23,906 nt of DNA, from positions 1-23,906 of the IMG/VR virus record IMGVR_UViG_3300020348_000011; one strand, given 5' to 3'. This document shows positions 2,770 through 12,531 of this stretch, one piece after another. The number at the start of each line of letters is the position of its first letter. Position 1 is the stretch's first letter. A program made the position numbers and the translations under genes. Below the pieces are notes generated by a model, which had not been told where the DNA came from, ran no database searches, and saw nothing but the letters and a program-made list of their open reading frames with translations. This DNA is from a virus.

Positions 2770-2816
2770 TAGAATACCACGTACAAGATCATTGATACAA
2801 TTATGTAAGTAACCAT
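2769..2816 (-). CDS. Possible 15-residue hydrophobic micropeptide
   Basis: A 16-codon frame from ATG 2816 to TAA 2769-2771 encodes MVTYIIVSMILYVVF, almost entirely hydrophobic. An AAGG lies seven bases before the ATG, and the stop overlaps the start of the conserved basic protein by one base (TAATG), the same coupling used by the two genes downstream. It could be a membrane micropeptide or a leader that loads ribosomes onto the next gene. The main gene has no good ribosome binding site of its own, which favours the second reading. Length gives no statistical support, so confidence is low. Confidence 0.35.
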   Translation of the reverse strand: MVTYIIVSMILYVVF

Positions 2817-2819
2817 AAC

Positions 2820-2865
2820 CGAACCTTAACAGAAAAAAAAAAAAATTACAAGCAACGAACCTTAA
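2820..2865 (-). repeat. Direct repeat flanking a 13-base homopolymer
   Basis: The ten-base word CGAACCTTAA (plus strand) occurs at 2820-2829 and 2856-2865. Between the copies is a run of 13 A (2833-2845), i.e. T13 in the leftward transcript. The first copy supplies the AAGG that could serve as ribosome binding site for the micropeptide. The run is not preceded by a convincing GC hairpin in the leftward direction, so I do not call it a terminator. It is a likely site of slippage or of sequencing length error. Confidence 0.5.
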
Positions 2866-2888
2866 ACGACTATAATGTCTGAGCACCA

Positions 2889-3041
2889 CCTACCTTATAA
2901 TCAGGCACGGGTTTTTCTAACCCACCCTTGTTTATTACTTCGGTGTTAGAAAAGCCGTGCCGCATAGTGAGGTCAGCTTTATGTGAATGATACTGGCAAG
3001 AGCCAGTAGCATTCGGATTGGGCTTACGCCAACAATCCCGA
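2889..3041 (-). promoter_or_regulatory. Structured intergenic region with three hairpins
   Basis: The 153 bases between the terminase small-subunit gene and the next coupled cluster hold no convincing gene but three inverted repeats. First, 3015-3023 with 3028-3038 (GGATTG/CAATCC plus GGC/GCC, loop TTAC). Second, 2991-2997 with 3002-3008 (TACTGGC/GCCAGTA, loop AAGA). Third, 2904-2921 with 2945-2961, a 16-bp stem with one mismatch and one bulge, containing TTTTCTAAC and GTTAGAAAA. None is followed by a T-run in the leftward direction, so they look like a processing or regulatory leader rather than terminators. Between the second and third lies ATAGTGAGGTCA (2964-2975), whose complement recurs at 4879-4890. 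Confidence 0.6.
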
Positions 3042-3431
3042 TTACTTCAAGTCTATGTTTATACTAAAATCACCCTTAACCATATGTTGGTGCTTATCTG
3101 GTGCTTTGAATCCTGCCCTATCAAGTATATCCTTACTTGCTTCAAGTTGTACATACTCTGATTTCGCACCTGAACATAAATCAAGTAACCTTGATTGTGC
3201 TTTAACTGCACTCATCCCCAAGTTATGTTGTATCTGTTCAAACATATACTGTTGTACCTTCGGATTTCGTAGCATACGACTTGCACTTACTCTGGAACTA
3301 TTCCCCTTGTATCCTGCGAGTTTTGACGCTTCTGTTATCGTACATCCTGTAGATACGAGAGTATCAACTAACTTCTTTGCTTTCGGTGTGATTTCATTGG
3401 TTTCTTTCATTGAAACGGACATACTCTTCAT
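3042..3431 (-). CDS. terS: Terminase small subunit
   Basis: DNA-recognition subunit that selects phage DNA for packaging and works with the large subunit encoded at the left edge. The 129-residue protein has the layout of the Terminase_2/TerS family: a start such as ITPKAKKLVDTLVSTG, then TEASKLAGYKGNSSRVSASR (helix-turn-helix-like, about residues 33-52), MLRNPKVQQYM (about 53-63), a central helix and an acidic/aliphatic C-terminal part. The start is uncertain: ATG codons lie at 3431, 3422 and 3410, none with a strong ribosome binding site. A good promoter overlaps the first and would begin the mRNA at about 3422, so 3422 (leaderless) or 3410 is likely. Separated from the other terminase genes by the structured region at 2889-3041. 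Confidence 0.8.
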   Translation of the reverse strand: MKSMSVSMKETNEITPKAKKLVDTLVSTGCTITEASKLAGYKGNSSRVSASRMLRNPKVQQYMFEQIQHNLGMSAVKAQSRLLDLCSGAKSEYVQLEASKDILDRAGFKAPDKHQHMVKGDFSINIDLK

Positions 3432-3457
3432 ATATCAGCTACTGTTAAAAAAGTCAA
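3429..3457 (-). promoter_or_regulatory. Sigma70-like promoter for the terminase operon
   Basis: Reading leftward, TTGACT (3457-3452) and TATATG (3434-3429) are separated by 17 bases. Five of six and four of six positions match the consensus. Transcription would start near 3422, at or just before the second ATG of the terminase small-subunit gene, implying a leaderless or very short-leader mRNA. Best promoter match I found in the divergent region. Confidence 0.5.
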
Positions 3458-3481: not shown

Positions 3482-3536
3482 TTGTTAGAAAAACCACTAG
3501 TGGTAAGATTTGTAAAGAACAAATCTTTTCTAACAA
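3482..3536. other. Three-way-junction inverted repeat
   Basis: A compact nested structure. Outer stem: TTGTTAGAA (3482-3490) pairs with TTCTAACAA (3528-3536). Inside it are a perfect 12-base palindrome, ACCACTAGTGGT (3493-3504), and an 8-bp hairpin, AAGATTTG (3505-3512) with CAAATCTT (3520-3527), loop TAAAGAA. Hairpin and outer stem abut with no unpaired base on the right side. It could act as RNA (junction) or as DNA (operator, recombination or packaging site). It contains the same GTTAGAAAA/TTTTCTAAC core as the hairpin at 2904-2961, on the other side of the terminase small-subunit gene. Confidence 0.6.
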
Positions 3537-3575
3537 CCACTTACATACACTTTATGTTTAATTAAAGATTTAACG

Positions 3576-3712: not shown

Positions 3713-3741
3713 TTGAGTCAAGTTATTTGTTTTAGTATTAG
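3713..3741 (+). promoter_or_regulatory. Candidate promoter for the structured leader and gene at 4014
   Basis: TTGAGT (3713-3718), a 17-base spacer, and TATTAG (3736-3741); each hexamer matches four of six consensus positions. Transcription would begin near 3748, just before the left arm of the large inverted repeat (3756), so the predicted transcript would start almost exactly with that structure. The position is more persuasive than the match. Confidence 0.35.
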
Positions 3742-3755
3742 TTGCGTAAACATTG

Positions 3756-4009
3756 ATGTCCTTCCGTTGTTAAGATTAATGGAAATTATCGAAGCTATAG
3801 ATACCTACAAATATTTGAGAGGTAGGAAAGCCACCCCTTTATATAAAGGTAGGGGTGGTGGCTTACATTTTGTGCCGTCAGCTAACGGCAGTAGCCAACT
3901 CCCTCCGGTTTCCTCCATACCGGCCGATCCTAAAACCTCCGGGAGTTGCAAATTTTGTAGGTATCTATATTTCGTAATTTCGCTATTAATCTTAACAACG
4001 AAAGGACAT
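3756..4009 (+). ncRNA. Large structured RNA element or riboregulatory leader
   Basis: A 254-nt non-coding element with ends that pair over their whole length. Closing helix: 3756-3780 with 3985-4009 (24 of 25 pairs), 3782-3788 with 3975-3981, 3790-3793 with 3971-3974, 3796-3811 with 3954-3969 (16 of 16), 3813-3817 with 3949-3953; 56 pairs in all. Inside: arm A, AAGCCACC (3828-3835)/GGTGGCTT (3857-3864) capped by CCTTT/AAAGG; arm B, TGCCGT (3873-3878)/ACGGCA (3885-3890) with loop CAGCTA; arm C, CAACTCCC (3896-3903)/GGGAGTTG (3941-3948) enclosing CCGGT/ACCGG with loop TTCCTCCAT. The interior (3821-3950) is 72 of 130 G+C by my count, against 11 of 60 in the first full line of the next gene. The AAAGGA ribosome binding site (4001-4006) of the gene at 4014 lies in the right arm, so the fold would hide it. 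It matches no RNA family I recognise. Confidence 0.7.
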
Positions 4010-4013
4010 AACA

Positions 4014-4544
4014 ATGGCAACTAATACTAAAACAAATAACTTAACACTTCTTGATAATATTAATTCATTTGTTGATTTTATGGATTGTTCACATATTCCT
4101 CCGACATCTGATGGTTCTTCATATAGTGATGGAACATATGATGTTGAATGGAATGTTGATAATATCTTATATTATGGTGGTTCGTTATCATATACTATAA
4201 ATCAAATTGAAGCTAAAAAATCTTATTATGACAATTTGACTTATAGATTAAATAATATGAATCAAGATACACACACCGATTCAGATATTGAAGATACAAA
4301 AGAAAAGATTGCATCTGTAGAACCTGTTATCTTTAACCTTTCTAAAATGGAAGCGTTACAACAAAGATTATTTTACGCATTTGTTGGACGTCATATTGGA
4401 ATTGAAATTGGAGATAATACTTCAATTCAAAATTTAGTTAAAGATGTTAGAAAATATTTAGATTCTAAAAAAAGAAAAAATATGGAATCTAAAAATTCTA
4501 ATAAGTTTGATATTGATTTAAATCAAACTGTTACTCTTAAATAA
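4014..4544 (+). CDS. Unknown protein under the structured leader
   Basis: A 176-residue protein I do not recognise. It is Asn/Asp/Ser/Tyr-rich at the N-terminus (about residues 1-55, with GSSYSDGTYDVEWNVDN), then predicted helical: a probable coiled coil at about 62-105 and another helix at about 110-165 containing KMEALQQRLFYAFVGRHIGI, ending in a lysine-rich segment and a polar tail. No membrane segment. ATG at 4014 has AAAGGA seven bases upstream, inside the long helix of the preceding RNA element. An intrinsic terminator follows 10 bases after the stop, and a candidate promoter lies before the RNA element, so the gene appears to be a transcription unit of its own. Expression is probably controlled by opening or processing of the leader (inference). 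Confidence 0.75.
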   Translation: MATNTKTNNLTLLDNINSFVDFMDCSHIPPTSDGSSYSDGTYDVEWNVDNILYYGGSLSYTINQIEAKKSYYDNLTYRLNNMNQDTHTDSDIEDTKEKIASVEPVIFNLSKMEALQQRLFYAFVGRHIGIEIGDNTSIQNLVKDVRKYLDSKKRKNMESKNSNKFDIDLNQTVTLK

Positions 4545-4553
4545 TATTAACTT

Positions 4554-4591
4554 ATTCCCTCTAGTCTTAATTGATTAGAGGGAATTTTTTT
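4554..4591 (+). terminator. Intrinsic terminator
   Basis: Perfect 10-bp stem, ATTCCCTCTA (4554-4563) with TAGAGGGAAT (4576-4585), a 12-base loop, and seven T (4585-4591) directly at the stem base. It ends the monocistronic unit of the 4014-4544 gene. No matching run lies on the other strand, so it acts rightward only. A second small hairpin, CTTTCTTT/AAAGAAAG (4595-4614), follows without a T-run. Confidence 0.9.
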
Positions 4592-4652
4592 GTACTTTCT
4601 TTTGAAAAAGAAAGATACCAAAGAAAACCATAACTTTAGATTGGAGCATATA

Positions 4653-4832
4653 ATGGCATTTCGTTATCATCTTATTTTGTTTTCAGTATTCATATATTCG
4701 TCTATAGTAGTCATAGATGGTTGGCATAAAAGTGAATTTGAATTCTGGACATCACTCATATACTTTTGTACATACATCTCAGTATACGGTGTTGAATTAA
4801 TAAAGTATCTATCTTCAAATGAAAGACCTTAA
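4653..4832 (+). CDS. Small two-pass membrane protein
   Basis: A 59-residue protein with two hydrophobic segments, about residues 5-22 (YHLILFSVFIYSSIVVI) and 32-50 (FWTSLIYFCTYISVYGVEL), joined by a short polar loop. The frame is open further upstream to a TTG at 4590, but the ATG at 4653 has GGAG six bases before it and gives a compact membrane protein, so I start there. It follows the terminator of the previous gene, so it needs its own promoter, which I could not identify. A 13-bp hairpin folds around its stop codon. Small membrane proteins in early phage regions often modify host envelope functions; here that is inference. Confidence 0.65.
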   Translation: MAFRYHLILFSVFIYSSIVVIDGWHKSEFEFWTSLIYFCTYISVYGVELIKYLSSNERP

Positions 4833-4847
4833 TTGGTTTTTCATTTG
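4816..4847 (+). other. Hairpin around a stop codon, possible terminator
   Basis: CAAATGAAAGACC (4816-4828) pairs with GGTTTTTCATTTG (4835-4847): 13 pairs with one G-U, loop TTAATT carrying the TAA stop (4830-4832). The sequence after it is T-rich but interrupted (ATTTATATTTT), so it may be a weak terminator or an mRNA 3'-end stabiliser for the small membrane protein. Confidence 0.5.
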
Positions 4848-4875
4848 CGGATTTATATTTTAAAATGTGCAAACT

Positions 4876-5053
4876 TGATGACCTCACTATCATCAGCACT
4901 AAGCAAGGCATCAATGCACCCGTAATGCAGGACAAAGCTCCTTCCTCATATATTGTCCTGCACTATGGTTGCATAGCCCGACTAGTTGCTATAAAACTGA
5001 CTAGCAATGTGCAACTATGTCAAGACTAAATAGGTTTGATTCCTATGCTTGGC
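4876..5053 (+). ncRNA. Hairpin array, possible structured non-coding RNA
   Basis: The 347 bases between 4833 and 5179 hold no credible gene but successive strong hairpins. TGATGA/TCATCA (4876-4881/4890-4895) has loop CCTCACTA. TGCAGGACAA/TTGTCCTGCA (4926-4935/4953-4962), a perfect 10 bp, has a 17-base loop containing CTCCTTCCTC. GTTGCA/TGCAAC (4968-4973/5010-5015) encloses TTGCTA/TAGCAA (4986-4991/5002-5007). GTCAAG/CTTGGC (5019-5024/5048-5053, one G-U) carries an apex ATAGG-TTTGATT-CCTAT (5030-5046) shaped like a tRNA T-arm. No tRNA or tmRNA could be completed. Direction is assumed rightward because the flanking genes are. It resembles no family I know. Confidence 0.5.
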
Positions 5054-5079
5054 AAAAGGTTTTTGGAATTTGTACCTAC

Positions 5080-5108
5080 TTGACGACTAACAAACAAAAA
5101 CATTTAAA
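5080..5108 (+). promoter_or_regulatory. Candidate early promoter
   Basis: TTGACG (5080-5085), 17-base spacer, TTTAAA (5103-5108); five and four of six consensus matches. Transcription would begin near 5115, within the hairpin at 5112-5144, and would serve the early operon that starts at 5180. Confidence 0.4.
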
Positions 5109-5111
5109 CTG

Positions 5112-5144
5112 TAGCTACATCTTTAACAGAACGAGATGTAGCTA
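5112..5144 (+). promoter_or_regulatory. Hairpin in the early-operon leader
   Basis: TAGCTACATCT (5112-5122) and AGATGTAGCTA (5134-5144) form a perfect 11-bp stem with loop TTAACAGAACG. No T-run follows, so it is not a terminator. It lies at the predicted 5' end of the early mRNA, 36 bases before the first start codon, where it could protect the mRNA or bind a regulator. Confidence 0.55.
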
Positions 5145-5179
5145 TAGCTATATTAGACTTAAAAACAAAGGAGTATATT

Positions 5180-5512
5180 ATGTCTAAATATTTAAAAGAA
5201 GATTCACGCCAACATCATTATGAAACTATTGTGCGTGAAGAACACGTCAAAGAAATCAATCGGATCAACACATTCCGAGAGATGTCTAATGAATATCAAG
5301 ATGTCATTCAAACTAAATATGCAGATGATACAGTTTCACACGATCAATTTGGTTTAGCTATGACATACTACAAAGAAATGGAGTTCTTAACAAAGTTATG
5401 TCTATTGCAAATAGAAAACAATATGATTTCAGATGAATATGTAGGTTATATGAAAGATATTGCTAAAGCTGTAGACAAACTAGAAAGGATTGCAAATGGC
5501 TCTACAAAGTAA
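5180..5512 (+). CDS. Unknown early protein
   Basis: A 110-residue charged, predicted all-helical protein (glutamate- and lysine-rich, with HHYETIVREEHVKEINRIN near residues 12-30 and a probable C-terminal helix at 84-105). I do not recognise it. The ATG at 5180 has a strong AAAGGAG eight bases upstream, within a 21-base start cassette repeated identically before the gene at 7178. It is the first gene of the early operon after the candidate promoter at 5080-5108, and its 3' end contains the ribosome binding site and start of the next gene (17-base overlap). First position in the operon suggests an early host-takeover role, which is inference. Confidence 0.7.
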   Translation: MSKYLKEDSRQHHYETIVREEHVKEINRINTFREMSNEYQDVIQTKYADDTVSHDQFGLAMTYYKEMEFLTKLCLLQIENNMISDEYVGYMKDIAKAVDKLERIANGSTK

Positions 5513-5675
5513 AAAATTATACAGATGTATAGTTACAACTAGTGAAACAACTTATGTTGAAGCAGATTGTGAAGAAGATGTAAAAGAAATGGCAATTTGT
5601 GGTCAAGTTAACTCGGTAACTGACCAAGAAGTTTTTGTTTCTAACATAGAGGAGGTGAAAACTATTGGCGATTGA
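5496..5675 (+). CDS. Small unknown early protein
   Basis: A 59-residue protein. The frame is open to a TTG at 5490, but ATG at 5496 has AAAGGA (5483-5488) seven bases upstream and is the better start. Sequence features: a basic start (MALQSKKLYRCIVTTSETTY), then a strongly acidic stretch (EADCEEDVKEMAICG) and an acidic C-terminus. The pattern of alternating hydrophobics (YRCIVTT, QEVFVSN) suggests a small beta-containing fold resembling phage proteins that present a strand-helix-strand unit. Function unknown. It overlaps the genes on both sides (17 and 11 bases), which implies coupled translation. Confidence 0.65.
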   Translation: MALQSKKLYRCIVTTSETTYVEADCEEDVKEMAICGQVNSVTDQEVFVSNIEEVKTIGD

Positions 5676-5925
5676 AGCACTAGAACAACAATATGAGTGG
5701 GAGTTGAATTCTGAACTTTACACTCTACAATACCTAATTAAGTGTGAGTATGAGATGCGAACAATACTTAAATGCACAGGTGCTATTGAAGTGGCTTTGC
5801 ATAATTGTGAAGCGAAAGAGTTATCGCAAGATAATTTGGAACGCATCACCACTTCTCTAACCATACTTAAAGAACAAGCTAAGGGGCTAGCTGATCTACT
5901 ACGAAAGGAAAAGTATGACCTTTAG
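5665..5925 (+). CDS. Unknown helical early protein, TTG start
   Basis: An 86-residue, predicted all-helical protein, unrecognised. It begins with TTG at 5665: GGAGG (5651-5655) lies nine bases before it and no ATG is suitably placed. The sequence contains two cysteines that could pair or bind metal (C28, C38, with another near 49) and a C-terminal helix ERITTSLTILKEQAKGLADLL. Start lies within the last codons of the previous gene. The GGAGG site is among the strongest in the window and exactly complements the CCTCC motifs in the structured element at 3904-3940; that link is speculative. Confidence 0.65.
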   Translation: MAIEALEQQYEWELNSELYTLQYLIKCEYEMRTILKCTGAIEVALHNCEAKELSQDNLERITTSLTILKEQAKGLADLLRKEKYDL

Positions 5926-5961
5926 CTTAACATTAATCTAACCATAAACAAAGGAGTAAAT

Positions 5962-6822
5962 ATGTTAGATGATATAAAAAAAGACTACGAGTTTCCAACA
6001 GAAATGGTGGAACTTGAAGCAATCAATAGAACAGATCATTTTCAAAACAAAAATTATTCTGTTCCAACTGATATGGCAAGAGCGTGTGTACGTACAGATA
6101 CCGGTCAGGTTCTGGGTATTCACGGCAGTAAATACAAACCTATCGCACACAAAGATGTAGTTGATAAAGTTATGCAAGGCGTTGAAAAAACGGGTATGTT
6201 TGACTATGAAACAAAGATAGAAGTCTTTGAGGCAGGTGCAAAAATGCGTGGCTCTGTTACATTCAACAACCTTGTAGTAGAACCACAGAAAGATGATATT
6301 ATTAAGTTTCGTATCAACTTCTTCAATTCATATGACCAATCGTGGGCATTTGCAACTATATGTGATGGCTTACGTTTGTGGTGTATGAATGGTTGCACTA
6401 CACCAATGAACGCATCAACATTACGATTCAAACATACAACAAATGTAAACATTCAGAGTATTACAGATCGTGTAAAATCTGGTCTTGATTTCTTTATGAA
6501 TTCTGGTATGGACTATTCACAATGGGCACATATCAAGTTGCATCCACATTCAGTTCAAAGATTTCTTGAACAAACATTATGCAAAACATTCAAACGTTCT
6601 TCTAATTCTATACCTTACAATGTAACAAGAACAGAAACATTACTTGAAGGTTTTGATAGAGAAGCACGATCATTAGGTAGAACTAAATGGGCATTGTACA
6701 ATGCAATGACATACTGGTCAACTCATACTGATGGACAGCGTGGACACGCTATTCGTAAACGTAGAGAAGATGAAGTGTCTAAAACATTAGGTTCTGTACA
6801 ATGGAAAGAACTAGTTGCATAG
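5962..6822 (+). CDS. DUF932 family phage/plasmid protein
   Basis: A 286-residue protein of the DUF932 (phage/plasmid-like) family, whose biochemical role is not established. Characteristic parts are visible: an N-terminal segment with ACVRTDTGQVLGIHGSKYKP (about residues 36-55), like the V-R-x-D-T-G-x-x-L-G-x-x-G-x-x-Y core of the family; the middle NSYDQSWAFATICDGLRLWC followed by MNGC (about 119-142), matching the N-S-x-D-x-S-x-A-F and C-x-N-G core; and a helical C-terminal half. The length fits the family (roughly 250-350). ATG at 5962 follows AAAGGAG by eight bases. These proteins often occur near phage recombination genes, as here. It ends with a stop followed by a possible promoter. Confidence 0.8.
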   Translation: MLDDIKKDYEFPTEMVELEAINRTDHFQNKNYSVPTDMARACVRTDTGQVLGIHGSKYKPIAHKDVVDKVMQGVEKTGMFDYETKIEVFEAGAKMRGSVTFNNLVVEPQKDDIIKFRINFFNSYDQSWAFATICDGLRLWCMNGCTTPMNASTLRFKHTTNVNIQSITDRVKSGLDFFMNSGMDYSQWAHIKLHPHSVQRFLEQTLCKTFKRSSNSIPYNVTRTETLLEGFDREARSLGRTKWALYNAMTYWSTHTDGQRGHAIRKRREDEVSKTLGSVQWKELVA

Positions 6823-6842
6823 TAGTATATAAATAGTATAAT
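6815..6842 (+). promoter_or_regulatory. Weak internal promoter candidate
   Basis: A perfect TATAAT (6837-6842) lies in the 42-base gap after the DUF932 gene, 16 bases after TTGCAT (6815-6820), which matches only three of six -35 positions. It would transcribe the small gene at 6865 and those beyond. A+T-rich DNA produces TATAAT often, so support is modest. Confidence 0.3.
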
Positions 6843-6864
6843 AAGAGTACGAAAGGAATATATT

Positions 6865-7062
6865 ATGACCGAGGGTGAAATCTTTGATGAGGTAGTTGCC
6901 CGTCTTGGTGAATCAGAATCTATACAAGAGTTTAGACATGCTGTAGAACCATTTGCAGAAACAATAATCTCATCACCACTATTTCCAAATGCCAAAAAAA
7001 GTCGTTTCAATGATGTTACATATCATATGTGGAACGATTATTGGTCTGAAAAATATTTATAG
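6865..7062 (+). CDS. Small acidic hypothetical protein
   Basis: A 65-residue protein, unrecognised. The first half is acidic and helical (TEGEIFDEVVARLGESESIQ), the second half aromatic with F-N-D-V-T-Y-H-M-W and W-S-E-K-Y at the end. The ATG has AAAGGA nine bases upstream. It lies alone between two short intergenic regions (42 and 115 bases), the second of which is rich in hairpins. The acidic profile would fit an early protein that mimics nucleic acid or binds a host factor, but nothing direct shows this. Confidence 0.65.
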   Translation: MTEGEIFDEVVARLGESESIQEFRHAVEPFAETIISSPLFPNAKKSRFNDVTYHMWNDYWSEKYL

Positions 7063-7148
7063 AATCATATGCAAGGTCTTTTTTATATATTTTGTGTGCC
7101 TTGCAATGATTAGGTTTGGGCGTACCTAGTTATGAGAAAACGCCCACC
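7063..7148 (+). promoter_or_regulatory. Two hairpins in an intergenic region
   Basis: AATCAT plus GCAAGG (7063-7068, 7071-7076) pair with CCTTGC plus ATGATT (7099-7104, 7106-7111) around a U-rich loop. TGGGCGT (7117-7123) pairs with ACGCCCA (7140-7146). Neither is followed by a T-run, so they are more likely mRNA processing or stability elements than terminators. Located just after the stop of the 65-residue gene and 30 bases before the next start. Confidence 0.5.
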
Positions 7149-7177
7149 ATAAATCCATTAAAACAAAGGAGTATATT

Positions 7178-7558
7178 ATGGATAAATATAATGTTGACTT
7201 AAAATTTGATCGCCAAACTTTAAAGTTTGGTAAGTCGCCAAACACGTGCGAGTTCATTGATTTTCATTTAGATAACCCAAAAGTTTGGGAACTGTACCTA
7301 CAGTTTGCATCTGATATGGTACATCACGGACACAAAAAATTATCAAGTGAAATGCTTATCAATCGTGTTCGTTGGGAAACAATGGTTAATACTACTGACA
7401 AACAATTCAAAATAAATAACAATCACAAACCTTATTATGCAAGACTCTTGCTCTCAACACAAAGGTTTAAGAATACAAAGTTCCTTGAAGTTAGACAAAG
7501 CTGTGCAGATGACTTATCATATTCCGAATGTGAAATATTGATGAGTCCATATGTATAG
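7178..7558 (+). CDS. Conserved phage protein of unknown function
   Basis: A 126-residue protein. The middle (about residues 31-95) carries a pattern I have seen in many phage hypothetical proteins: FHLDNPKVWELYLQFASDMV, then GHKKLSSEMLINRVRWETMV, then FKINNNHKPYYARLLL. That is D-N-P-x-V-W-x-L, S-x-E-x-x-x-x-R-x-R-W-E and K-I-N-N-N-x-x-x-Y-Y-A-R. No function is established to my knowledge; these proteins usually sit in the early region, as this one does. The ATG has AAAGGAG eight bases upstream in the 21-base cassette shared with the 5180 gene. Its last eight bases overlap the start of the HTH gene. Confidence 0.75.
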   Translation: MDKYNVDLKFDRQTLKFGKSPNTCEFIDFHLDNPKVWELYLQFASDMVHHGHKKLSSEMLINRVRWETMVNTTDKQFKINNNHKPYYARLLLSTQRFKNTKFLEVRQSCADDLSYSECEILMSPYV

Positions 7559-8033
7559 AATTGCAGTCAAAGAATTACAAGAAAGACGGCAACACCTAGG
7601 ATTATCTTCGCAAGAAGTTGCAGAAAAACTAGGTGTTTCCGATTCGTTAGTATCGCTTTGGGAATGTGGTAAAAAGCAACCAAGCAGCACTATGTTTTTT
7701 AATTGGATAACTGTGCTTGGCTTTAACTTTATTCTCAATGTACATCAATCTCAAATCCCAAAAACTTTTGAGCCAAGCTACGATACAAAGCGTTGGATCA
7801 CAGAAGAATTTGGAGAAAGGTATAACTATGAGCAAGAACTTAAAATCTTTATCAACCATTATCGGGCAGGTGCGACAACTAAATCGGATTGGCAGTACGC
7901 TTTCCGATCTTGGTTATTGCGTTCCAAGAAATTCCAATCCAATACAACTCAAACCACCGAGGGTACTGCAGAACGCCGTGAGCGTATTAACAATGTCTTT
8001 GCTATTAGCAATAAAACAAAACAAAGTAGATGA
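7551..8033 (+). CDS. XRE-type HTH protein with replication-protein-like C-terminus
   Basis: A 160-residue protein. Residues 6-55 form a helix-turn-helix of the XRE/Cro type: VKELQERRQHLGLSSQEVAE, then KLGVSDSLVSLWECGKKQPS. The C-terminal half, about residues 91-124, contains FINHYRAGATTKSDWQYAFR followed by SWLLR. This resembles the F-x-x-Y-W-x(n)-K-x-D-W-x-x-x-(F/W)-R-x-W block at the end of many phage replication-initiation (replisome organiser) proteins. It could therefore be an origin-binding protein as well as a repressor-like regulator. It starts inside the preceding stop (ATG 7551) without a strong ribosome binding site, suggesting coupled translation. Its last 206 bases overlap the gene beginning at 7828 in another frame. 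Confidence 0.75.
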   Translation: MYRIAVKELQERRQHLGLSSQEVAEKLGVSDSLVSLWECGKKQPSSTMFFNWITVLGFNFILNVHQSQIPKTFEPSYDTKRWITEEFGERYNYEQELKIFINHYRAGATTKSDWQYAFRSWLLRSKKFQSNTTQTTEGTAERRERINNVFAISNKTKQSR

Positions 8034-8433
8034 GTATGTAGCTACAGAAGATGATGCCACTAAAAGTTTACATTTATTAAATGAAACATTACGACATTGT
8101 AAAAAATTAATGTTACCTGCAGATCCTAAATATATAGGCACGGCTATAGAAATGTGTGCCTCTACATTTGGGTGTGATGTACCTAATGAACTTGGTTTAA
8201 AAATATACAAAGACATATTAGCAAAATATCCACAATGTATTATAGAAGAATACACAATAGAACTAATTAAAACTTACAAGTACAGGAGGTTGCCTGTACC
8301 TGCAGACTTTTTAAATATCTATGAACCACCATACGAACACGGAATGTTGTTCATAGAAAATACATATTTAAAAACAAAAAAGTTTGCAAACATAGTACAA
8401 AAGTGCTATAAAATAGATACGAAAGGAGTATAA
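7828..8433 (+). CDS. Unknown protein overlapping the HTH gene
   Basis: A 201-residue protein, unrecognised, helical in outline, with two cysteine-containing stretches (MCASTFGCDVPNELG near residues 115-129 and PQCIIEEY). The ATG at 7828 is preceded by GGAG and AAAGG (7812-7820), with AAAGG seven bases away, so I start there, though it overlaps the HTH gene by 206 bases. A later ATG at 7993 would cut the overlap to 41 bases but has a poor ribosome binding site. The frame extends upstream to 7717, without a better start. It ends two bases before the exonuclease gene. Position between a possible origin-binding protein and recombination genes suggests a replication role, by inference. Confidence 0.6.
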   Translation: MSKNLKSLSTIIGQVRQLNRIGSTLSDLGYCVPRNSNPIQLKPPRVLQNAVSVLTMSLLLAIKQNKVDEYVATEDDATKSLHLLNETLRHCKKLMLPADPKYIGTAIEMCASTFGCDVPNELGLKIYKDILAKYPQCIIEEYTIELIKTYKYRRLPVPADFLNIYEPPYEHGMLFIENTYLKTKKFANIVQKCYKIDTKGV

Positions 8434-8434
8434 T

Positions 8435-9244
8435 ATGCAACCAAAGAAAAAAGTAGAACGACCTAAAACACTTGGTGGTTCAGATGCTGTACGCATTATG
8501 GAAGGTGATTGGCACACACTCTGGAAAGAAAAGACAGGGCGTCAAGAACCTGCCAACTTGGATCGGGTGTTACCTGTACAAATCGGCATTGTTACAGAAC
8601 AATTAAACAAGCAATGGTTTGTTCAGGAAACAGGACATAAACTATTACCGGCTAGTAATCAACACGAATTCACAGATGGATTTCGCCACGCTAGTCTTGA
8701 TGGAATGGTAAATGTTAGTGACAAAATATGTGTCCTAGAGTGTAAGCATACCAATGCCAACAACACTTTAGAAAATGTTATACGAAAATATATGCCACAG
8801 CTACAACATTATATGCAAGTTGCAATGATGGATAGAGCGTACCTCTCAGTAATTTTTGGTAATATGAGATACGAATGGTGTGAAATAACATACGATAATG
8901 ATTACATAAAGATGCTTTACGAAATGGAAGATACCTTTTGGAAGCAACATATATTAAATGACAAAGAACCAGAAAATATAAAAGCAGAAAAAATAATACA
9001 AGACTATACAAATAACATAAAAGTAAACGATATGATTCGTATTGATATGGAGAAGAACAATGAGTTTGTAGCTAATGCACATGCTTGGCGTGAAACGAAA
9101 ATACCATACGATCAACACCGAGCAGTTGGTAAGGTATTGAAAGAACTAATACCTGCCAACTGTCGTCTTGCTGAAGGTGGTGGTATCAAAATATCACGAA
9201 CAAAAGCAGGACACCTAACCATCAAAGAAAACAAAGGAGGTTAA
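8435..9244 (+). CDS. YqaJ-type viral recombinase exonuclease
   Basis: A 269-residue 5'-3' exonuclease of the YqaJ/lambda-Exo type (PD-(D/E)XK fold), which would resect double-stranded ends for recombination by the annealing protein encoded next. Motifs: GGSDA (residues 14-18), G51 with E55 in the helix IGIVTEQLNK, D89 in HASLDGMV, E102 and K104 in VLECKHTN (the D...ExK catalytic set), and MPQLQHYMQVA (about 120-130), the Q-x-x-x-Y helix of the family. The length is typical. ATG follows AAAGGAG; the gene begins right after the preceding stop, and its 3' end carries the strong AGGAGG of the next gene. Forms a recombination module with the next two genes. Confidence 0.9.
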   Translation: MQPKKKVERPKTLGGSDAVRIMEGDWHTLWKEKTGRQEPANLDRVLPVQIGIVTEQLNKQWFVQETGHKLLPASNQHEFTDGFRHASLDGMVNVSDKICVLECKHTNANNTLENVIRKYMPQLQHYMQVAMMDRAYLSVIFGNMRYEWCEITYDNDYIKMLYEMEDTFWKQHILNDKEPENIKAEKIIQDYTNNIKVNDMIRIDMEKNNEFVANAHAWRETKIPYDQHRAVGKVLKELIPANCRLAEGGGIKISRTKAGHLTIKENKGG

Positions 9245-9245
9245 T

Positions 9246-9836
9246 ATGATGGGTAACATTGAACCAAGAGTAAAGAAAATACTACAAGAGTATGATCTTA
9301 AACCCGAACACGCACTCTGGGAACTAAAGCGTGGTGGTAAAGCAACATTAGTTATGTTGCACAAATACTGTGAACTTGTTGGAGCTAAAGCAGGTGTTGT
9401 CATTGATGACATACTTGAAGTAGAAACAAACTCTGCACAAGGTATTGCAGTAGTTAAATGCTATGCACACAATGACAAAATGAAAGTCATTACCTACGGA
9501 GAAGCAAGTCCTAAAAATAGTAAGGTTGCTTATCCATATGCAATGGCAGAGAAACGTGCTGTAGATAGAGCCATACTTAAACTTGTTGGATTACACGGCT
9601 TTGTATATTCAGAAGATGAGTTTGATACAACAGATCAGAAGATAGGTTCTGCAGATGATGACGCTATTAAAACATTTCTTACTAATATTGAAGGTAGCAA
9701 AACTATTAAACAAGCTACCGGATATTATGAAATGGCAAAAGTAAACATAGCTAAAGCCAAGAAATCTAATCCGGGATTGTATCAAATGGCTGTAGCTAAA
9801 TATGAATCTAAACGAAAGGAACTACAAAGTGTATAA
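9246..9836 (+). CDS. Putative single-strand annealing protein
   Basis: A 196-residue protein between an exonuclease and an SSB, the usual place of a phage single-strand annealing protein (recombinase partner of the exonuclease). The central block TYGEASPKNSKVAYPYAMAE, continuing KRAVDRAILKLVGLHG (about residues 79-115), has the pattern G-E-A-(S)-x-x-x-x-x-x-x-Y-P-x-A-M-A-E-K-R-A-x-D-R-x-I-L-K-L seen in phage proteins of this context and resembles the A-x-A-x-x-R-A helix of Rad52/Erf-like annealing folds. I cannot assign it to a named superfamily. The start may be either ATG at 9246 or 9249; AGGAGG is five or eight bases away. The 3' end holds the SSB ribosome binding site. Confidence 0.6.
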   Translation: MMGNIEPRVKKILQEYDLKPEHALWELKRGGKATLVMLHKYCELVGAKAGVVIDDILEVETNSAQGIAVVKCYAHNDKMKVITYGEASPKNSKVAYPYAMAEKRAVDRAILKLVGLHGFVYSEDEFDTTDQKIGSADDDAIKTFLTNIEGSKTIKQATGYYEMAKVNIAKAKKSNPGLYQMAVAKYESKRKELQSV

Positions 9837-10254
9837 TAAAATTACATTGATAGGTAATCTAGGTGCTGACCCTGAAATAAAACAAACAGGTGCAGGATCT
9901 AATTACGCCATCTTGTCTTTAGCTACAAACAGAGTAGTTAAAGGCGAGAAAGATACCGAATGGCACAAAGTTGTTGTTTGGGACGATAAGATTGCTGACA
10001 TACTTTCTAAATATAGTAAGAAAGGTAGTCGGGTTTTATTGGAGGGAAGATTAACATATCGGGATTGGACAACCGAAGATGGTGAAAAACGAACCAAAGC
10101 TGAGATACACTTAGATAGGTTCAATTCAGAAATGAAACTTATGGATTCTAAATCTGATAACTCTACACCATCTGTAACTACAGATGAAAAATCAAAACCA
10201 CGAGGATTTGAAAAAGAAGGCCTTGATGATTTTGATGATGAGATTCCAATCTAA
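9829..10254 (+). CDS. ssb: Single-stranded DNA-binding protein
   Basis: A 141-residue SSB with one OB fold that coats single-stranded DNA in replication and recombination. The N-terminus reads YNKITLIGNLGADPEIKQTG, followed by ILSLATNR, TEWHKVVVWDDKIADIL, YSKKGSRVLLEGRLTYRDW and KAEIHLD, in the order found in bacterial SSB. A polar linker leads to the acidic tip DDFDDEIPI, which normally docks partner proteins. I start at GTG 9829: the protein begins with the usual strand there, and AAAGGA (9815-9820) is eight bases upstream. The ATG at 9802 lacks a site. It overlaps the annealing protein gene by eight bases and the following ATG by one. Confidence 0.93.
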   Translation: MYNKITLIGNLGADPEIKQTGAGSNYAILSLATNRVVKGEKDTEWHKVVVWDDKIADILSKYSKKGSRVLLEGRLTYRDWTTEDGEKRTKAEIHLDRFNSEMKLMDSKSDNSTPSVTTDEKSKPRGFEKEGLDDFDDEIPI

Positions 10255-10463
10255 TGTTTAAAATATTTGTTGTTACACTATGGTTAGAATATGAAGGTAG
10301 ATTATATATGAAGTATGCTGTACCTTTACTAGCCAAGTGTAACGTCTTTACGTGGTGGAGTGTGCAAGAACAATTCAAAAATTCTGTAGTTAATGTAGCC
10401 GCTATGAAGTGCACACGATTTAAAGATTTTAGGTACGATAGGAGGATTTATGACCGCAAATGA
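10254..10463 (+). CDS. Small basic hypothetical protein
   Basis: A 69-residue protein, unrecognised. It begins with a hydrophobic stretch (MFKIFVVTLWLEYEG), has another moderately hydrophobic stretch (YAVPLLAKCNVFTWW, about residues 21-35) and ends very basic (KCTRFKDFRYDRRIYDRK). The ATG overlaps the SSB stop by one base (TAATG), and the last 14 bases overlap the LexA-like gene whose AGGAGG lies within this frame. There is no independent ribosome binding site, so expression depends on SSB translation. Basic C-terminus and position suggest a nucleic-acid-linked role, which is inference. Confidence 0.55.
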   Translation: MFKIFVVTLWLEYEGRLYMKYAVPLLAKCNVFTWWSVQEQFKNSVVNVAAMKCTRFKDFRYDRRIYDRK

Positions 10464-10704
10464 AGCACGTGTATTAAAGTTTGTAAAAGACTTTTTAAGT
10501 ATGTATGGGTTTAGCCCATCTTATAAAGAGATTGCAGAACATCTAGCGTTCTCATCACCTTCACAAGCACATAAAATATGTATGCAATTAGTGAAGAAAA
10601 ATAAATTAACCAAAGGTGTAGGTGCAAGAAACCTAGAAGTATTAGGCACAGATTGGTATGCACACGCACCATCAGATACAGAGCCAAAAAATGGGAAAGT
10701 TTAG
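10450..10704 (+). CDS. LexA-type winged-helix DNA-binding protein
   Basis: An 84-residue protein matching only the DNA-binding part of LexA. Residues 5-17 (EARVLKFVKDFLS) form the first helix, GFSPSYKEIAEHLAFSSPSQ (20-39) the turn and following helix, with AHKICMQLVKKNKLTKGVGA (40-59) as recognition helix and wing. The autocleavage (S24 peptidase) domain is absent, so it cannot respond to RecA by self-cleavage. It may act as a small repressor or antagonise host LexA sites, both inference. ATG follows AGGAGG (10440-10445) by about four bases. It overlaps neighbours by 14 bases at each end and lies among replication and recombination genes. Confidence 0.75.
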   Translation: MTANEARVLKFVKDFLSMYGFSPSYKEIAEHLAFSSPSQAHKICMQLVKKNKLTKGVGARNLEVLGTDWYAHAPSDTEPKNGKV

Positions 10705-11017
10705 CAAGAGCAAGGGATATAGAGTAGAAGCGAAACTTGTAAAGGAGTTTGTTAAACACGGAATAAAAGCACGAAGACAACCAATGAGCGGAGCGATACC
10801 AGATTTCCCTTACGACATAGAAATAAGACAAGAACCTTGGCACAAACTAAGCGTGGAAGTAAAGGCACGAAAAGATGGAGCCGGATTTAAAACACTAGAA
10901 AGATGGAAGTCGGGTGCTGACTTGCTGTGCCTACACAAAGACCACGGCACAACAATGGTATGTTTAGACTTGCCTTTATTTATAGATATATTAAAACAAA
11001 GTAATGAACAAGATTAA
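10691..11017 (+). CDS. PDDEXK-like nuclease, resolvase type
   Basis: A 108-residue small nuclease-fold protein. Positions from the ATG at 10691: KGYRVEAKLV with E13 (first motif of archaeal-type Holliday junction resolvases and related nucleases), ARRQPMSGAIPDF (27-39, the S-G that usually precedes the active site), D42 in YDIEI, and E56-V-K58 in LSVEVKARK (the ExK), followed by LERWKSGADLLCL (a conserved region of phage relatives). The set E...SG...D...ExK supports metal-dependent DNA cleavage. It probably resolves branched recombination or replication intermediates before packaging. The frame is open to 10658, but the motifs fit the later start. It overlaps its neighbours by 14 bases on each side. 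Confidence 0.75.
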   Translation: MGKFSKSKGYRVEAKLVKEFVKHGIKARRQPMSGAIPDFPYDIEIRQEPWHKLSVEVKARKDGAGFKTLERWKSGADLLCLHKDHGTTMVCLDLPLFIDILKQSNEQD

Positions 11018-11675: not shown

Positions 11676-12076
11676 TAGATTATATTATTGTAAAATTTGT
11701 GATCGCCAATAGTAACTACAGGCGTTTGGCCTTGTGCCCATTTAGGCATAATGTTTGTAGTGTGATAATGCGTTGACCCTTCTGTATTATCTTTTATCTT
11801 TTCTTCTAATACCAAATAAGCAAGAGCAAACATTTTTAAATAAACTTCATCTACCATTGGTAAATTCTCCATCTTTTCTTTATTAGGATCACCTTCATTC
11901 CAACAACTAAACTGCCATTCTTTTAAACAAACTTCTTTTGGTGTGTTGCCATACCAACGTCTAGCCTCGGCTCTATTTTTTATAACACTAGCTACAGCAA
12001 TCTGACCACTAGTATCTTGGTTGCGAGATTCACCCCACATTGTCTTTGCCATTATGTCTAAATCTTCAAACGTCAT
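11675..12076 (-). CDS. SleB/CwlJ-type cell wall hydrolase (endolysin)
   Basis: A 133-residue peptidoglycan hydrolase of the SleB/CwlJ (Hydrolase_2) family, probably the endolysin. Family landmarks: MAKTMWGESRNQ with E16 as the expected catalytic acid; GQIAVASVIKNRAEARRW (24-41, the A-V-A-x-V-x-x-N-R helix); QFSCWN (55-60, the F-S-x-W); STHYHTTNIMPKWAQ (101-115, the H-Y-H and P-x-W); and IGDHKFY (123-129) at the end. The protein is a single catalytic domain with no signal peptide or wall-binding module, so release depends on the holin encoded immediately downstream. Its start overlaps the previous stop by four bases. Confidence 0.9.
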   Translation of the reverse strand: MTFEDLDIMAKTMWGESRNQDTSGQIAVASVIKNRAEARRWYGNTPKEVCLKEWQFSCWNEGDPNKEKMENLPMVDEVYLKMFALAYLVLEEKIKDNTEGSTHYHTTNIMPKWAQGQTPVVTIGDHKFYNNII

Positions 12077-12531
12077 ATAAACTTTAATAACTTTAACTCA
12101 TAATATATAAAAATCAAGAGTCCTGCAATAGCTAATGATGCAACTATAATTGTTTTCCTGCGTTCTTTTTCTTGTTCTAGTCGTTTTAACTCTCTTTTTT
12201 TCTCAGCACGGGCACTAGCAATTTCACCTTGTAATCGTTCCCATTGACCCGGTGAACCATATAATAAAAAGATTTCACGCAACTGATCACGCATACGAGC
12301 AAGTTCTTCTTTACGAAGATGGGCTTCTATGGCTGTTTGTTCTACCGAACTAAACTTACCAAACAAGGATCTCCCTTTTTTTTCTGCGTGTATTTCAATG
12401 TTTGCTTCACCTATAGCCCACTTTGATATATACCCACTTAGACTAGACAAGTCTTTACCTACCTGTATACCTTTCATAATTACAGAATGAGCAGTTTTAA
12501 CTGCGGCAAATGCTGAAAGCGGATCAATCAT
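12073..12531 (-). CDS. Conserved phage protein with C-terminal membrane helix
   Basis: A 152-residue protein. The N-terminus MIDPLSAFAAVKTAHSVIMK resembles that of a common phage protein lying next to lysis genes. The middle is a long charged helix or coiled coil (about residues 65-125, with REIFLLYGSPGQWERLQGEI and then a KRELKRLEQEKERRK run), and the end is one hydrophobic segment (about 126-148, TIIVASLAIAGLLIFIYY). The coiled coil plus single membrane anchor and location directly before the endolysin invite comparison with inner-membrane spanins, but the order (anchor at the C-terminus) differs from the usual type. Function not established. Start and stop both overlap adjacent genes. Confidence 0.7.
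   Translation of the reverse strand: MIDPLSAFAAVKTAHSVIMKGIQVGKDLSSLSGYISKWAIGEANIEIHAEKKGRSLFGKFSSVEQTAIEAHLRKEELARMRDQLREIFLLYGSPGQWERLQGEIASARAEKKRELKRLEQEKERRKTIIVASLAIAGLLIFIYYELKLLKFI

Follow-up and report, generated by a model that had tools for sequence, protein, structure and literature searches.

The stretch of DNA analysed here (the window) is a 23.9-kb virus record from a phage resembling pelagiphages. Among annotated phages it is closest to Pelagibacter phage EXVC031P Hodr, with 70% identity in the terminase small subunit and 29% in the large internal virion protein. In the open reading frame list, genes left of ∼3430 are read leftward and those from 4014 to 11017 rightward. The structure described here sits in a 582-nt gap between the terminase small subunit (TerS) gene on the minus strand and gene 1, the first rightward gene. 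The features of the locus are:

3042–3431, minus strand: TerS gene (phrog_51, E 8e-14)
3429–3457, minus strand: leftward promoter-like site of the TerS gene (TTGACT, 17 nt, TATATG; scan score 9.2)
3717–3811: left arm, an inverted gene-1 leader, SD, ATG and first codons (inverted repeats I1, I2 and I8)
3812–3953: central GC-rich loop region with three local hairpins (fold of both strands)
3954–4045: right arm, holding the leader, SD (AAAGGA, 4001–4006), ATG (4014) and first ∼10 codons of gene 1 (inverted repeats)
4014–4544, plus strand: gene 1, a fast-evolving early gene of 176 aa (ORF)
4554–4585, plus strand: intrinsic terminator directly 3′ of gene 1 (terminator scan)

The promoter-like site of the TerS gene is the best-scoring leftward site and forms the left boundary of the element; the same site is found in relatives, among which its GTCAACATACC block is conserved. 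The annotated TerS start overlaps the −10 of this promoter (3429–3457), so the true start is probably a later, internal Met.

At 3740–4030 the fold reaches −123.2 kcal/mol, where shuffled sequences average −66.2 (z −11.56; none of 200 shuffles as good), which bears out an earlier note's claim of a genuine structured element. The opposite strand gives an equally good fold (z −11.46), both strands reaching ∼−124 kcal/mol. Two arm pairs, 3756–3780/3985–4009 (25 nt, 96% complementary) and 3796–3811/3954–3969 (16/16), and three inner hairpins in the central loop (3827–3864, 3873–3890 and 3896–3948) lie where that note had put them. Its boundaries at 3756 and 4009 were too narrow: an outer arm pair, 3717–3745/4017–4045 (29 nt, 97%), widens the full inverted repeat to 3717–4045 and carries it into the gene 1 coding sequence, so that the statement that the complementarity is not explained by coding fails for the outer part. 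The arms carry small bulges, with one uninterrupted 26-bp run in the window.

The key fact, overlooked at first, is what the arms contain. The right arm spans the SD, the ATG and about the first 10 codons of gene 1, and the left arm is therefore an inverted copy of the gene-1 start, with a mirrored ATG at 3751–3753 and a mirrored SD at ∼3759–3765 on the minus strand. Gene-1 bases 4–32 match the inverted left side at 96.6%, the left arm scores z 20.9 against its own gene-1 start, and the copy covers −65 to +82 relative to the gene-1 ATG when aligned with gap-tolerant scoring. The region recurs at 99–100% identity in two other IMG/VR contigs, and the cultured phage Hodr shares the architecture though not the sequence, which disposes of the suggestion that the inverted arms are an assembly artefact. 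A search for tRNA and tmRNA returned none, a search of annotated phage DNA, using the region as query, gave chance matches only, and no relevant report was found in the literature on pelagiphage non-coding RNA or inverted repeats. Rfam 15 (4227 models, gathering score threshold) had no match in the window or in 16 relatives (146,671 bases), in keeping with the original impression that the element belongs to no known RNA family.

Terminase-anchored IMG/VR searches yielded about 130 loci, ninety of them non-redundant, all from one phage clade and not independent. Most of the ninety share a common layout: the terminase promoter, a folded gap usually of 280–950 nt, and gene 1. Folding of the gap is extreme in 54 of 56 tested loci (plus-strand z below −4, mean −8). 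The fold is conserved and the sequence is not: arm sequences differ completely between groups of relatives. In Hodr (OQ414635, L174) the same arrangement takes the form of a bulged helix of roughly 95 bp, at the gap that separates genes 021 and 022 (∼12036–12374) and the start of gene 022. The GenBank entry OQ414635, named EXVC031P Hodr, has locus tags EXVC032PBaldr, a probable labelling mix-up in the deposit. The largest palindromic match seen, ∼1.15 kb, adjoins the terminase gene in locus L128 (gap 27–1180). One inner hairpin module (AACAACAATAGTCCTTCT...CCCGATTGTTGTTG) recurs within unrelated outer arms in L015, L016, L050 and L020, as if such modules were exchanged between phages.

The copy follows the gene that it adjoins. 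When the left part of each gap was inverted and aligned to its own gene-1 start (−40 to +60, starts being picked automatically) and to the starts of unrelated clusters, the own start beat every unrelated one in 40 of 71 loci, spread over nine sequence-unrelated clusters, with z 8–34. The result is bimodal: none of the other 31 loci exceeds z 3.3, though a folded region is present. In the best-sampled cluster (12 loci), each left arm best matches its own right arm along the diagonal of the score matrix, with one tie. The copied stretch includes the ATG in all 40 loci and typically runs from ∼−74 to between +50 and +150; the arm's right end can fall anywhere between a point before gene 1 and one past its end. 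Other genes of the same loci have no such copy (0/377), the only two high scorers among 379 both being gene-1 homologs. With the terminase promoter on one side of the palindrome and gene 1 on the other, this start could be copied partly because of where it lies and not because the start itself is selected.

In five loci (L099, L124, L025, L170 and L143) the whole of gene 1 is mirrored. These mirrors are decayed, with many stops and frameshifting indels, and do not form divergent pairs of intact paralogous genes. Since the gene is intact and the mirror decayed, gene 1 is probably the source and the mirror the copy. Compared with small indels, the arms hold few mismatches: substitutions number 1.28 per indel, whereas between orthologous gaps the ratio is 2.99. 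Uninterrupted pairing does not exceed 11 bp in Hodr and the best-sampled subgroup of the largest cluster. This pattern may mean that RNase III or perfect palindromes are avoided.

Gene 1 itself is variable. Its product has no PHROG match and is 37% identical to its homolog in the relative L099, and the gene 1 products of relatives fall into at least a dozen sequence clusters (BLAST at 1e-3). The AlphaFold2 model of the window protein (pLDDT 69.7) predicts a helical hairpin, and a fold search with it gave generic helical matches only, none at E <= 0.001. Models from two distant clusters both have a long two-helix hairpin flanked by short helices, so the clusters may be a single, very fast-evolving family; the product is possibly a host-takeover protein. 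An intrinsic terminator lies 3′ of gene 1 in 21 of 64 loci, against 0 of 64 after shuffling.

The reading tentatively preferred here, held with rather less than even confidence, is that the locus is a self-complementary control element of gene 1: a hairpin built by template switching and acting at the RNA level, probably through a putative leftward RNA that overlaps the gene-1 start. Template switching at DNA replication, a form of fold-back copying, would have produced the copy from the gene side and renewed it time and again. The selected form would be a folded single strand, most likely a leftward RNA that begins within or past the start of gene 1 and ends near the terminase promoter. Since this RNA would contain the complement of the SD and start codon, it or its folding may control gene-1 translation. 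The mirrored half would fold that complement into a long bulged hairpin, allowing conditional control in which an open antisense form alternates with a closed hairpin; the hairpin would also stabilise the putative RNA. The early proposal of a switch for the next gene may also hold, because the arms contain the gene-1 start.

Which strand folds can be read from the imperfections of the arms. Across 55 loci, transition mismatches in plus-strand letters comprise 266 A.C against 95 G.U (211:65 after near-duplicate removal). The figures are 239:59 in the 40 gene-start loci and 45:3 around the SD and ATG, and the A.C excess holds at all codon positions and in 8 of 9 clusters. An A.C on the plus strand is a G.U on the minus strand, so the folding strand is probably the leftward one. 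In 42 of 56 loci, with composition accounted for, the minus strand gives the better fold, and the consensus fold energy is −43.1 on minus and −33.8 on plus. Unpaired letters in internal and multibranch loops, counted on a strand-neutral fold and read on minus, are A.36, U.27, G.23 and C.14, an A-rich, C-poor composition that resembles RNA loops. The four tests agree that minus is probably the folding strand, against the earlier note's choice of plus, although cluster 4 and a few other loci lean the other way; tetraloop type was uninformative as a strand indicator. The main alternative to minus-strand folding is a strand-biased mutation process, which could mimic the G.U preference; 4-fold sites in neighbouring plus-strand genes have no skew (A+C vs G+T 277:263, small numbers).

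The main RNA-level rival takes the element to be a cis-acting leader on the plus strand. A rightward mRNA would start just right of the terminase promoter, the 5′ part of this early mRNA would pair with the gene-1 SD and start codon, and translation would stay off until an inner promoter bypassed the leader or the leader was processed or opened. Among known schemes, this is the simplest for such a layout. In leaders that sequester the ribosome-binding site, as in riboswitch-type translational switches, an upstream segment can pair with the SD and start codon. The left arm does have that complementarity to the SD and start region of the plus-strand gene, gene 1 forms a transcription unit of its own that ends in a terminator, and L099 has a good rightward promoter within the loop. 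Yet the plus strand avoids G.U pairs, above all at the SD and ATG themselves, plus-strand energies are the weaker ones, the promoter scan of the loci found no conserved rightward promoter, and the whole-gene arms of five loci are unnecessary for sequestration. The element differs from known leaders in having a near full copy of ∼90–200 nt in place of a short anti-SD, no conserved aptamer or sequence, and the opposite strand preference. The plus-strand reading is on balance rather unlikely.

Conservation of pairing can be followed in compensatory changes, a check proposed at the outset that found them in abundance. In 26 close pairs of sequences, double-changed base pairs kept pairing in 64 cases and broke it in 11 (plus strand), far above shuffles, and stems had fewer single changes than loops. 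Among eight related sequences, 27 pairs have both bases changed; shuffles give 11.0 (sd 2.3) and reach that number in 0 of 500, a count that is not a probability as the sequences are related; slid pairings of the same eight give 6–13. Covariation thus exceeds both shuffled and slid pairings, as in a structured nucleic acid. Many of the double changes are not simple transitions and some lie in neighbouring runs, with runs of 2–3 in L045/L046, L046/L048 and L119/L023.

Hairpins can be both made and kept up by template switching (Monttinen and Loytynoja 2022, PMC8794818), so covariation alone is no proof here of selection on RNA. The locus has the marks of such an origin: a reverse-complement copy of a neighbouring segment and clustered multi-base compensatory changes. 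The hairpins of PMC8794818 share with it single-event inverted copies, compensatory changes of several bases and maintained pairing; theirs are stems of rRNA and miRNA with patterns up to 59 bp, whereas the arms here reach 50–600 bp, at one locus clade-wide, and always mirror the start of the same gene.

The main DNA-level rival takes this process to be sufficient. The stretch right of the terminase promoter would be a palindrome hotspot without function, where template switching at the fork near a stalled site generates and corrects inverted copies, and RNA pairing would be a by-product. A documented mechanism (PMC8794818), the left arms that track their own right arms, the multi-base compensatory runs with non-transition double changes, and the inverted pseudo-copies of the whole gene in L099, L124/L025, L170 and L143 all fit it. 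Against it, the element is kept at one locus across the clade despite tightly packed genomes, the strand asymmetry is strong, single changes are rarer in stems than in loops, and mismatches are scarce relative to small bulges. This account, too, is rather unlikely.

Single-stranded DNA would give the same strand signal as RNA, and G.T tolerance fits a minus-strand DNA as well. The element might then be a replication origin, primase-loading site or recombination signal used with a RecE-like exonuclease and SSB. The window phage does encode a RecE-like exonuclease (PHROGs), and the location between divergent late and early blocks is suitable, but the copying of the gene-1 start would be left unexplained, no replication initiator is recognised in the phage, and there is no shared sequence motif; this reading is distinctly unlikely. 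A packaging-RNA-like component of the DNA packaging motor, as first suggested, is highly improbable: the element resembles phi29 packaging RNA in its multi-arm fold, paired ends and proximity to packaging genes (it adjoins the TerS gene), but it has no sequence or packaging-RNA model match in the window or 16 relatives, an ordinary TerS (phrog_51, E 8e-14) is present, and sequence and loops are not conserved between relatives.

The preferred reading, a leftward RNA over the gene-1 start, has precedents in phage counter-transcripts over gene starts, such as lambda paQ and OOP and P22 sar. These are likewise antisense to a phage gene and control it; the putative RNA here would add a sense-like mirror of the same start and fold on itself, and its promoter was not found. 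No conserved promoter beside the fold, in either direction, emerged from the scan of relatives apart from the terminase promoter. Leftward promoters are not enriched at the gene-1 start, where the best scores equal shuffled ones, and this missing enrichment is the weakest point of the RNA reading. The variable end of the right arm is also odd for an RNA with a fixed start, and the 31 loci with a folded region and no gene-start copy speak against gene-start control. The ornate phage RNAs GOLLD and ROOL (structures in PMC12286853) are likewise large folded non-coding regions in phage genomes, with conserved sequence cores and Rfam models, whereas the present element keeps its architecture but not its sequence and matches no Rfam model.

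The persisting match between copy and gene points to either an unrecognised gene control or an unusual DNA-copying hotspot. It is possible, though doubtful, that this is a novel type of regulatory RNA whose defining trait is architecture and not sequence: a hairpin that serves as its own template, copying the translation start of the adjacent gene again and again. If so, replacing the fast-evolving early gene would automatically bring a matching inverted control arm. Compensatory changes are usually taken as proof of a fixed RNA family, whereas here the pairing outlasts replacement of the sequence, even of the adjacent gene cluster, and each arm mirrors its own neighbour. The locus is a natural test case for whether replication itself can maintain regulatory hairpins, and it marks a fast-evolving early gene of an ocean phage group as under unusual control. 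The element is testable because a cultured pair, Hodr with Pelagibacter HTCC1062, carries it.

Other folded stretches occur in the window. Downstream of the TerS gene, a non-coding stretch at 2796–3041 folds with z −5.5 and contains a block of ∼88 nt conserved in many relatives. A long local hairpin at 3484–3545 (GTTAGAAAAACCACT...CAAATCTTTTCTAAC) has a near-identical copy in L016, in a different gap context. A second strongly folded non-coding region, 4833–5180 (z −11.9 for 4801–5000), has no tRNA and no Rfam match; it is conserved in sequence and modular in many relatives, and includes a T-arm-like segment, ATAGG-TTTGATT-CCTAT. In the early region, the mostly coding stretches 9041–9320, 9761–10040 and 10161–10360 have unusually strong plus-strand folding (z −5 to −8).
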